NCBI GenBank assembly: GCA_027603945.1
Contig: JADIIU010000150.1
Coordinates: forward strand, 1-28,528
Direction of reading: 5' to 3'
From: Terramyces sp. JEL0728
Taxonomy: Eukaryota; Chytridiomycota; Chytridiomycetes; Rhizophydiales; Terramycetaceae
Length of the DNA stretch: 28,528 nucleotides
A program made the translations under genes and the position numbers. Positions 11,029 through 20,012 of the stretch are shown piece by piece. The notes under the pieces were generated by a model. It was not told the origin of the DNA. It ran no database searches and worked only from the letters and a program-made list of their open reading frames with translations. Numbering within the stretch: the first letter of the stretch is position 1; each line of letters opens with the position of its first letter.

Positions 11029-12237
11029 ATGCAAGTATTACCAAACCCACAGCAGTCTCTTTGCCTGGTACAAAACCTAGTAAAAGCAACCATTGGATCA
11101 ATAGCTTACATTCGAATGCTCTTTCCCGAAGATGCATTCGAAACCAAGGGCATAGACGGAGTAGCAATCAAGACTCTAAAACGTGATTTTACAAGCGAAA
11201 GTAATTGTCTGTTGGATTGGATTGAGGTTGGTGTATTTGATGCATTGGAAAAAAAGTACCTCAAGAATCTCGTTTTTGGGATTTATCTGGACAAGGATAA
11301 ACCAAATGAGATGATTGAACAGTATCTCTTTGAATTCAAGTGGAATAATTTAATCCTAGGTACTGTGTATTTAACTGTAGGTAATTGTGCTGGTTGATTT
11401 AGTTACATTGAAGATAAAGTAGAATTTAATTTGTGCTCTGGGAAGCAAGAAATTTCCAAAACCACTCATCAGTTGATAAGAAGATTATTATTGATGACCC
11501 AATCACTTGAATCTCTGCCGGATGATGCGTACGTTACTCTAAGATTATTCTATCACCCATCAACTCCACTTTCCTATGAACCTCCTCATTTCAAAAAGTT
11601 GGACAGAGTGAGCAATCAAGAGTACCACTCGACATTGAATTTGGGCTCTGTTAAAACCCCTTTTCATGATTTTAGCTTAAAAGTAAAGACAAACTGTCAA
11701 CAACAAGGTAGATCTCTCTGACAAAGTCCAAGATTATGATACCCAAGAATTAAAGGAGGGGTTGGAAAATAACGCTAATTTGTCTCAAACGCAACCGAGA
11801 TTTTTCAAAGCAAAGGAATTTTCTCAATCAATGGTAAATTACAACTAAATAGACCCAAGACCCAATCCCAAACTTCCAATGTGTCTGTGGATTACAATGT
11901 GATTTCCCTTCATTTACTTGCTGCTCAGCGCTACACCATCTAATTTGCAGTCCATCTGGCGAATGGTTCGTTATATTAACCAAGTGTGAAATGTCTGTCA
12001 TCTAAAACACCAACACTGCCAATCACTGAAATCAAGGAAATTTGTTTAAAGAAACTCGCTTTATTTTACCTATTAACAACAAAGAATACTGATTTTAGCA
12101 AAAAGCTAGGTGTAACCAATTCAAAAACCAAGGAATTGTTGGATTGGATGAAGCTGAGTGGATACATTAACAGTAAAAAGAAGATTGTAAAGGAAAACAA
12201 AGGTAAAGCATATTTATGCAGGGTTAGAATGGATTGA
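11029..12237 (+). CDS. HOP1: HORMA-domain meiotic axis protein (Hop1 family)
   Basis: Exons 11029-11339, 11403-11707, 11727-11833, 11853-11965 and 11985-12237 give 362 aa. The N-terminal HORMA domain is clear: SLCLVQNLVKATIGSIAYIR, LFPEDAFE, LLDWIEVGVFDAL, LVFGIYLD, then SLESLPDDAYVTLRLFYHP and YEPPHFK. Joining exons 3-5 creates a PHD-like zinc finger (CVCG...CC...HHLIC...CVKC) followed by a winged-helix-like region (KKLALFYLLTTKNTDFSKKL). HORMA plus zinc finger plus winged helix is a known Hop1 layout. The protein acts on meiotic chromosome axes, so it implies a sexual cycle. The last three introns are 19 nt each. The first gap, 11340-11402, is 63 nt and divides into three GT...AG units; removing all of it gives YLFEFNYIEDKVEF, which fits the HORMA strand order. 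Confidence 0.88.
11340..11402 (+). other. Three-unit tandem intron (20+21+22 nt) in the HOP1-like gene
   Basis: Unit 1 (11340-11359) is GTGGAATAATTTAATCCTAG. Unit 2 (11360-11380) begins GTACTG and ends TTAACTGTAG. Unit 3 (11381-11402) begins GTAATT and ends TTGATTTAG. They abut with AG|GT junctions and no exon between. Removing all 63 nt restores the reading frame (phase 2) and a normal HORMA sequence. Removing units 1 and 3 only would also keep the frame, leaving a 7-codon mini-exon, so cassette splicing cannot be excluded. Confidence 0.6.
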
Positions 12238-12317
12238 TTCAGCTGTTATTGTAAAATCAAGCACAGTAACAAAAGATATCGCAGTATTGTAATAAAACGA
12301 TGGCACTTTATTCTAGT

Positions 12318-13243: not shown

Positions 13244-13530
13244 ATGACATTTAAGCGCAAAGCAGAACCTGTAAAGCAAGAGCCATCAAGTTGTTTTAAA
13301 TTAATATAGAAAAGCAAAAGGAATGGCAACTAGATTTGTCCTCTAGCAAGAAACTCACGATTTCAATGTTCACTGGGAAGCCAATGGTTGATTTGAGAAA
13401 CTTTTTCAAGGACAAAGCAACTGGAGAAATGAAGCCTACCCAGAAAGGAATTATGCTTTCATTGGAAGAATTCGAATTGATTCATCAAAATTATGAATTG
13501 ATCAAGGAAGAGTTCAATAAATGCTTGTGA
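13244..13530 (+). CDS. SUB1: Transcriptional coactivator PC4/Sub1
   Basis: Exons 13244-13289 and 13310-13530 join across a 20-nt intron (GTTGTTTTAAATTAATATAG) to give 88 aa. The N-terminus is short, basic and Ser-rich (MTFKRKAEPVKQEPSSKKQK). The rest is the PC4 single-stranded-DNA-binding fold: KKLTISMFTGKPMVDLRNFF, then GEMKPTQKGIMLSLEEFELI. PC4/Sub1 binds melted promoter DNA and assists RNA polymerase II initiation and elongation. Length is close to the core of the family; yeast Sub1 has a long extra C-terminus that is absent here. The upstream ATG is preferred because it supplies the expected Lys/Ser leader and splices in phase. Confidence 0.92.
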
Positions 13531-18441: not shown

Positions 18442-20012
18442 ATGGACAATAATTTCTTTAATTCACTTGGACTTAATAATCAAGAGCAAGATCAGCAGCA
18501 ATTAAATATTAACTTTGAACAGCTGCCTCCTCAGCAAAGATTACAAATGATGCAGAACATCAACAGCCAGCGACATCCACAGCAACAGAATTTCTTGCTG
18601 CAACAACAAATGCTATTATATCAACAACGGCTGCAACAACAAAATAGAATGAATCAAATGTCTCCGCAATTAATTACTTCATCTCCTCAATTATCTTCAC
18701 CACATATCCAGCAGAATATGCAATCTATTCAATCCCTACAGGTAATCGCATGTTAACTCCAGGTTCAGCCAACTATTAATTATAGGTAATGTTGCTTTAA
18801 TACAGAACAACTTACAGCAAAATCTACAGTCAAACCTACCTCAAAATCTACAGCAAAATCTTGCTCAAAACATGCAGCAGAATATCCAGGCAATTAAAAG
18901 CTAATCCTAGGTATTAACAAAGTAACTCTAGGTAAAAAATGCAATCAATCCAATGATGAATTATACAAATGTAAACATGATGATGAATATGGTGCCAAAT
19001 CAGCTACAAAATAATTTCCAACTACCTAACCAAGCTTATTTCAACAACCCTAGAGTAACACAGATGGTGAATCAAGCTCAGTTTATGCCAAATAGAGCTT
19101 TCGCGAGGCCAAAGCAAGCGCCAAATATAAATATCAGGCCACATGTTGGAAGTAATCAAAAATTAAATATAGCAACTCCCTCTGTACCTAAAGGTGCCTT
19201 ATTGTTGATTTAGCTGCAGCAGGGAATATTAATATTACAGATCAAACTAATAGTGTATCAGTTACCCAGCGACCGAGGTATGAGTTGCCCAAAGGACCGC
19301 CATTATTTGCAATCGCACCGCAGCAATCTACTCGATGCTTCTTCACCCAGAATATGCATGGGCTAGTAGATCCCCCAACTTTACTCACTGGATATCAAAA
19401 TACCACTACAGTAGGACAAAAAATTGAATCCGCACCATTGTATAATTACATTAATTGTAGGTATAATAGAGACAACATTTCTGATATTAAACCAATTACC
19501 ACGACAACTGGACTTGCAAAGAGGAAGCTCCATTTGTTGTTAGCAGAATTGGACCCGCTTGAAACGCTATCCCCAGATGCCGAACAAGTATCTTTAACTA
19601 ACCAAGTGTCTATTACAATTTGCAGATCATTTTATAGAACAGGCAACTCATAGAGCAAGTAAAATATCAAAGCATTGCAACGCTACCACTCTACAAGTAA
19701 AAGATCTGCAGCTAGAACTAGGTAACTATCTGTTAACAAGAACAATCATGGAATATTCGTATACCTGGATATGAAACGCAAACGCGTCCAATTCATAAAT
19801 ACTTGCCCACAGCCGCACATGCAGCTAAACTAACAAATGTAATGAAACAAAGAAAGGATGAAGCGGCGGTAAAGTATTATAAATACGCGCACTTTGAAAA
19901 GATGCATCAAGATTTGCTAAGTGCTGTTGAAATGCAAGAAAAGGAAGGCGAAGGCGATATAGATGAAGAAGTAGTGGAAGAAGTAGAAGATGAAGTGGTA
20001 TTTGTTGAATAA
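18442..20012 (+). CDS. TAF12: TFIID/SAGA subunit TAF12 with Gln/Asn-rich N-terminus
   Basis: Exons 18442-18741, 18806-18889, 18932-19193, 19214-19439, 19461-19587, 19607-19721 and 19741-20012 give 461 aa. The first ~180 residues are Gln/Asn/Met-rich (QQQNFLLQQQMLLYQQRLQQ), prion-like. The histone fold follows: KRKLHLLLAELDPLETLSPD, then AEQCLLQFADHFIEQATHRA, SKISKHCNATTLQVKDLQLE and the TAF12 hallmark WNIRIPGY. It pairs with TAF4 in TFIID and Ada1 in SAGA. The C-terminus HAAKLTNVMKQRKDEA also fits TAF12; an acidic tail ends it. Simple introns are 20, 19 and 19 nt. A 21-nt intron at 19440-19460 is in frame and optional. The first two gaps (64 and 42 nt) are tandem arrays of ~21-nt units, described separately. 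Confidence 0.9.
18742..18805 (+). other. Three-unit tandem intron (21+23+20 nt) in TAF12
   Basis: Unit 1 (18742-18762) begins GTAATCGC and ends TTAACTCCAG. Unit 2 (18763-18785) begins GTTCAGCC and ends TTAATTATAG. Unit 3 (18786-18805) is GTAATGTTGCTTTAATACAG. Units abut as AG|GT. Removing all 64 nt is needed to pass from the first Gln-rich frame to the next (…SLQ|NNLQQNLQ…). Keeping unit 1 would insert a stop; dropping only one or two units breaks the frame. Confidence 0.7.
18890..18931 (+). other. Two-unit tandem intron (21+21 nt) in TAF12, GC donor in the first unit
   Basis: Unit 1 (18890-18910) begins GCAATTAA and ends GCTAATCCTAG, following a CAG exon end. Unit 2 (18911-18931) begins GTATTAAC and ends GTAACTCTAG. 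Each unit contains an in-frame stop, so both must be removed. The Gln/Asn frame before and the Asn/Met frame after are the same frame once 42 nt are removed. A single 42-nt GC-AG intron is the alternative reading. Confidence 0.6.
19440..19460 (+). other. Optional in-frame 21-nt intron in TAF12
   Basis: The segment starts GTATAATTAC and ends TTAATTGTAG, with the same end and branch features as neighbouring introns. It is 21 nt with no stop, so retention adds seven residues (YNYINCR) and removal gives APLYNRDN. The exon after it begins GTATAATAG, repeating the start of the segment. Confidence 0.5.

Follow-up and report, generated by a model that had tools for sequence, protein, structure and literature searches.

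The 63-nt intervening sequence in a HOP1-like HORMA-domain gene of the chytrid Terramyces sp. JEL0728 is probably made up of three complete, autonomous U2-type mini-introns that are separated by zero-length exons and most likely excised separately. The gene lies in a 28,528-nt contig (hereafter, the window). The unit structure, its recurrence throughout the genome and the restoration of conserved proteins upon array removal are all legible in the sequence, from which we best infer removal unit by unit; at least some of the arrays also appear to have grown by tandem duplication.

A probable composite intron in HOP1

The features of the gene, all on the forward strand, are as follows.

11029..12292, forward strand: HOP1-like HORMA-domain gene (our own gene model; stop position read from the sequence)
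11029-11339, 11403-11707, 11727-11833, 11853-11965, 11985-12202 and 12222-12292, forward strand: HOP1 exons (our own gene model)
11340..11359, forward strand: composite intron, unit 1; 20 nt, GTGGAATAATTTAATCCTAG, branch motif TTAAT, weak GTG donor
11360..11380, forward strand: composite intron, unit 2; 21 nt, GTACTGTGTATTTAACTGTAG, branch motif TTAAC
11381..11402, forward strand: composite intron, unit 3; 22 nt, GTAATTGTGCTGGTTGATTTAG, branch motif TTGAT
11708..11726, forward strand: single 19-nt intron; orthologue co-linear
11834..11852, forward strand: single 19-nt intron
11966..11984, forward strand: single 19-nt intron
12203..12221, forward strand: single 19-nt intron, the least certain of the HOP1 introns

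An earlier note on this DNA had divided the 63-nt gap (11340-11402) into 20 + 21 + 22 nt, with a GT, a branch-like motif and an AG in each piece and AG|GT at both joins; the division is exact, leaves no remainder, and all these signals are in place. The three units also pass a strict test (length of 19-23 nt, and YTRAY with its A 6 or 7 nt before the 3′ end), and units 2 and 3 are both matched by the junction pattern used in the genome-wide search described below; the GTG donor of unit 1 is weak, with a score of -2.26. Strict chains in a 228.5-kb sample, consisting of the window plus the initial 20 kb from each of ten contigs, comprise two with three units (HOP1 and the one at 18742, both in the window) and one with two. 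Because 1000 dinucleotide shuffles yielded 0 three-unit chains (and 0.036 two-unit chains per shuffle), the three-unit tiling of HOP1 is not chance.

The family fit that the earlier note had stated for full removal was borne out. With all three units removed, the protein reads YLFEF-NYIEDKVEF (YLFEF-NYIEDKVEFNLCSG), co-linear with the Boothiomyces HOP1 orthologue, which is 75% identical and reads YIFEFNYFEDHVEFNLCSG at the junction, with no residue gained or lost; the orthologue segment YIFEFNYFEDHVEF likewise agrees with full removal of the array. The HORMA profile gives full removal 180.6 bits but cannot by itself decide how HOP1 is spliced, since the alternatives score 182.7 bits (unit 2 retained) and 178.6 bits (a 36-nt intron). 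The former corresponds to regulated alternative splicing, in which unit 2 would at times be kept as a 7-residue microexon. Only 2 of the 8 possible removal combinations leave an open frame, namely, all three units and units 1 and 3, so that the latter is the sole partial product with an open frame; unit 2 retained alone introduces no stop and keeps the frame, with a slight gain in HORMA bits. Nevertheless, the Boothiomyces orthologue shows no insertion at this place, unit 2 carries the full set of intron signals, and a single open 21-mer easily arises by chance, so that we regard this reading as quite improbable. Less credible still is a 36-nt intron at 11367-11402 that follows the coding sequence FKWNNLILGTV: the frame is open and the HORMA domain remains recognizable at the above score, but the donor scores -0.71, the length falls outside the distribution, with no such length among the 112 or the 178 introns predicted by the gene models below, and 9 residues absent from the Boothiomyces orthologue would be added. 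By gene-model score, three introns (-14.4) and one 63-nt intron (-14.3; both values are sums) are about equal, and the trained gene model renders HOP1 only as short unspliced fragments.

Residues 58-110 of our model are absent from the public HOP1 protein (P0003), as is the zinc-finger segment; the first loss lies around the composite intron (window 11203-11421), and the zinc-finger segment is further on. Both segments are missing apparently because tiny introns were left unmodelled. This is a warning for annotation: unmodelled introns of about 20 nt can delete segments of a protein, as they apparently did in P0003.

Intron size across the genome

Most introns of Terramyces, whose assembly comprises 15.0 Mb in 231 contigs, appear to be about 20 nt long, within a narrow range of 19-23 nt. 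Counted without a gene model over distances of 10-79 nt, GTA..YTRAY..AG occurs 83 times at 19 nt and 115 times at 20 nt, with ~29 expected, and shows a smaller excess at 17-18 and 21-22 nt; beyond this peak, no distance up to 79 nt has more than 44 matches, the count reached at 35 nt. When a gene model was trained with an initially flat prior on length (12-300 nt), 111 of its 112 introns measured 19-23 nt and the other 61 nt; YTRAY is present in 85 of 111 introns predicted in the 228.5 kb, with its A at 6-7 nt from the end in 73 of the 85. Fixed site models whose length prior was uniform up to 1000 nt gave 88 of 91 introns at 19-23 nt (the others being 14, 28 and 58 nt), and a model with 10% prior weight on longer introns, applied with 24 further loci, gave 177 of 178 at 19-23 nt and one at 14 nt. 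None of these 178 exceeds 24 nt, a count that may be too low for long introns because the model can split a gene instead of accepting one.

Reading the gaps between exon matches is free of this gene-splitting bias, and we applied it to the Cpn60/TCP1 (CCT) genes; the count covers introns between matches. Among 22 gaps in eight genes, 18 arithmetically fit one intron of ~19-26 nt. Three are larger: one is explained by a pair of tiny introns, of 22 and 24 nt, on either side of an exon, and the other two are simple introns, 67 and 114 nt long, which cannot be divided into AG|GT units. Long introns thus make up 2 of the 22 counted, a C27 gap (~34 nt, overlapping frames) being left out. The suggestion of the earlier note that the spliceosome is limited to introns of about 20 nt therefore fails, as does a strict ruler of ~24 nt, and a one-step excision of 63 nt is not forbidden by length. 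Shortening of the two long introns by hairpins was considered and rejected: GATC clusters are common (3.2 GATC/kb) and the folds are not significant (z of 0.49 and -1.57 for the 67- and 114-nt introns, respectively). These two introns, located at L056 and L057 (contigs C42 and C12), are possibly decayed arrays. Overall, introns longer than 24 nt look to be few in this genome, judging from predictions and gaps alike.

Other conserved genes were read in the same manner. HSP70 genes have few introns, and in the proteasome genes, which were picked in the knowledge that two arrays are located there, 16 gaps were readable: 14 are compatible with ~17-22 nt, and the remaining two correspond to those arrays. 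The proteasome reading leaves out two C29 gaps, and the combined HSP70 and proteasome reading one C31 gap. A search for U1 with Rfam gave no match in Terramyces, but none in the control genomes either; one U2 gene was found. On contig C5, at ~10.7-11.8 kb of the first 20 kb, two introns are predicted identically on both strands (10772 and 11288 on the forward strand, 11222 and 11738 on the reverse, in strand coordinates), which suggests an inverted repeat.

A further case is predicted in a formin-like gene (L054, G000:C106:24500-26300), for which a lowered intron penalty was set in the gene model: 36 predicted introns of 20-23 nt delimit 22 predicted exons of exactly 3 nt (21 ACC and 1 CCC). 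Most of these introns lie in the proline-rich FH1 region, that is, the proline runs before FH2, and the FH2 domain itself is confirmed by Pfam. Certain adjacent introns of this gene are near-copies of each other. The predicted 3-nt exons keep proline codons, and neighbouring tiny introns would therefore be removed singly in this gene.

Arrays of mini-introns and the proteins they interrupt

HOP1 is not alone even within the window, where three further features were recorded.

18742..18805, forward strand: second composite intron, 21 + 23 + 20 nt, inside a Q-rich reading frame
18890..18931, forward strand: probable third composite intron, 21 + 21 nt, GCAATTAAAAGCTAATCCTAG|GTATTAACAAAGTAACTCTAG, unit 1 apparently with a GC donor
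13290..13309, forward strand: single 20-nt intron in a gene that we take to be PC4-like

The second and the probable third composite introns share one Q-rich reading frame.

Genome-wide, the junction pattern TTAAYN{1,2}TAGGTAN{13,16}TAG, which does not demand a branch motif in the second unit, has 30 matches compared with 12 for the reversed pattern, and four further junction patterns have 67 compared with 22 (20/5, 19/4, 13/3 and 15/10, the last being the TTGAY pattern, barely above its control). YTRAY at 6-7 nt is present in the second unit of 16 of the 30 first-pattern matches, against a background of 119 out of 445 (same-size GTA..TAG stretches of the 228.5-kb sample, real introns among them), and in 42 of 97 matches to all five patterns (16/30, 11/20, 3/19, 5/13 and 7/15), the CAG-acceptor pattern, with 3 of 19, being no better than background. 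Zero spacing between units is special: with a two-base acceptor spacer, there are 18 matches at spacing 0 and 21 over spacings 1-12 taken together, 7 of which come from one formin gene, whereas the reversed control gives 53 over spacings 1-12, i.e., 4.4 per spacing. The excess of 63 matches, divided by a catch share of 0.44 (the proportion of single introns detectable by the search patterns), gives a rough estimate of ~140 AG|GT junctions in the genome.

By our own curation, 23 of the 30 first-pattern matches are contained in arrays, and the other seven (L027, L032, L040, L042, L043, L046 and L049) were judged not to be arrays. The array set combines this curation with two other loci and two more arrays from the window; matches to the four further patterns were curated singly for C128, C1 and two in the window. 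Paralogous copies (L030 and L039), repeats (L034, L036 and L048) and doubtful cases (L042 and L043) were left out before counting. Similar arrays, on whose existence elsewhere the earlier note had made its reading depend, do exist: the curated set holds 22, HOP1 included, with 2-7 units each (two units in 12 arrays, three in 4, four in 4, five in 1 and seven in 1), amounting to 64 units and 42 junctions and spanning 39-148 nt. The array at L024 was initially assigned six units, but its first 'unit' is coding, which leaves five units and 105 nt. Ten of the 42 junctions fit none of the search patterns, and decayed arrays would be missed because arrays were sought by their intact signals. Two pairs of loci, L029/L030 (both on C26) and L038/L039 (C30 and C33), are duplicated over ~3 kb, with 97.5% and 98.7% identity, respectively; each copy retains a two-unit array at the corresponding position, with a single base difference.

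Outside protein support is available for 12 of the 22 arrays, HOP1 included, and is weak in one of these, a CAND1-like match obtained after array removal (E 0.009); for the other 10 arrays, the support consists of open frames or weaker matches. Aligned to solved chains, five proteins run without a gap over the junction once the array is removed: PSMA6 (proteasome alpha-6; C30:14748-14828, 81 nt, four units, the last three identical), PSMB5 (proteasome beta-5; 62 nt, three units), heme peroxidase (43 nt), the CAP-Gly domain of TBCE (41 nt) and U2A′ (41 nt). Pfam matches above the cut-off cross the junction in endosulfine, CAF1, MATH (four units), CDP-alcohol phosphatidyltransferase (five units) and HOOK (C128, seven units). 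Compared with a relative, HOOK shows a 5-residue gap located five residues from the junction; a search for PDB relatives of the MATH, HOOK and PI-synthase-like pieces found none. The U2A′ gene, which bears a two-unit array (L025, C12:55823), itself encodes a spliceosome component. Given that the arrays recur at 22 curated loci, each time in another gene, that 12 of these have outside protein support and that the shuffles yielded no triple, an artefact of sequencing or assembly, or tiling by chance, is exceedingly improbable; the assembly is divided into 231 contigs, and we found no evidence in favour of such an artefact.

Removal, origin and biological meaning of the arrays

How would such arrays be spliced? 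By intron definition, the spliceosome of Terramyces would mostly recognise a donor together with the branch point ~13 nt and the acceptor ~20 nt downstream of it, and each unit would most likely be excised on its own. The order of excision would be irrelevant because, whichever unit or run of units is removed, an AG or an exon would meet the neighbouring GT or exon, so that every route would lead to an identical mRNA. The mRNA sequence cannot decide between routes for this very reason, and a single excision of all 63 nt, spanning the outermost GT and AG, with the internal signals as unused relics of recently joined introns, would give the same product. This one-step alternative is also in keeping with the simple 67- and 114-nt introns of the CCT genes and with the identical or near-identical units of two arrays, which are hence young. 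Separate removal is favoured over it, however, because long introns without units look rare (more than 24 nt in 2 of 22 in the CCT genes and 0 of 178 in the gene model), because dissimilar units each keep a GT (in one case, GC), a branch-like motif and an AG, and because the predicted 3-nt exons of the formin-like gene require introns to be removed singly in the same genome. We therefore consider one-step removal unlikely and retain separate excision of the units as the preferred reading.

Duplication in tandem of a sequence that contains AGGT can give rise to a new intron. In Terramyces, by contrast, the duplicated segment would be the intron itself, which yields arrays rather than an exon-derived intron, and tandem duplication of an intron would automatically produce a spliceable AG|GT array. 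The earlier note had proposed that introns multiply in this manner. Duplication is plain in 2 of the 22 arrays, namely, L035, where three identical 20-mers stand behind a different first unit, and L052, with four near-identical 21-mers. As a general origin, the proposal did not hold: without these two arrays, pooled units are no more alike within arrays than between them (mean score of 2.47 vs 2.61, p 0.67, with L024 in its six-unit form), and yet they are complete, although L024 and L045 each contain a single pair of units whose similarity is above that of 99% of unrelated pairs. The arrays other than L035 and L052 could equally well stem from old duplications or from the insertion of new introns at AG|GT sites. 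That tandem duplication can create an intron is described in PMC4974935.

The arrays bear comparison with several known systems, each of which they resemble in part. Recursive splicing at zero-nucleotide-exon ratchet points takes place in Drosophila and also in human. The feature shared with the Terramyces arrays is the juxtaposition of AG and GT inside the removed segment, together with an intron that would be taken out in segments and a donor regenerated at the exon junction, and to this extent the parallel with Drosophila drawn in the earlier note stands. The parallel is partial: whereas Drosophila ratchet points occur within long introns and depend on a cryptic RS-exon, according to the abstract of PMC8605326, the Terramyces segments are complete introns of 19-23 nt, up to 7 in a row, and would require no order. 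Recursive splicing is recognised in kilobase-long host introns, but the HOP1 intron is 63 nt long and the arrays 39-148 nt. Inside an array, the next donor is that of the next unit, 19-23 nt away.

Like stwintrons, the arrays are fungal complex intervening sequences of several U2 introns. Stwintrons, however, are nested: the external intron has one of its splice elements split by an internal intron, and their removal takes, by definition, two consecutive reactions (PMC9024468). The Terramyces units, by contrast, abut, each signal is contiguous and nothing is interrupted; in HOP1, the outermost GT-AG pair gives the same product. Ultra-short introns within a narrow size range are likewise found in mikrocytids (16-17 nt), chlorarachniophyte nucleomorphs (18-21 nt) and heterotrich ciliates (15-16 nt) (PMC10245619, in excerpt), and Terramyces shares with them the GT-branch-AG organisation, at ~20 nt. 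What sets it apart are the arrays, of which the same excerpt of PMC10245619 makes no mention for these three groups, the exons of 3 nt that are predicted and the presence of a few simple introns of greater length (67 and 114 nt). Among the open-access matches listed, a set that mostly leaves subscription journals outside, neither tandem arrays of ~20-nt introns nor tiny introns in these chytrids are described.

On the whole, we lean towards the view that the Terramyces spliceosome works purely by intron definition, imposes no lower limit on exon length and would remove ~20-nt introns one by one across 0- and 3-nt exons, that introns in this fungus multiply in the manner of minisatellites while the protein is unchanged, and that selection on every unit keeps composites of up to 7 units working. 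Exons of 0 and 3 nt are hard to square with exon definition, and, if this view is true, it shows how little flanking sequence a spliceosome requires beside the splice sites. It would also offer a simple route to intron multiplication and lengthening, in which tandem duplication of 20 nt immediately yields a spliceable array.
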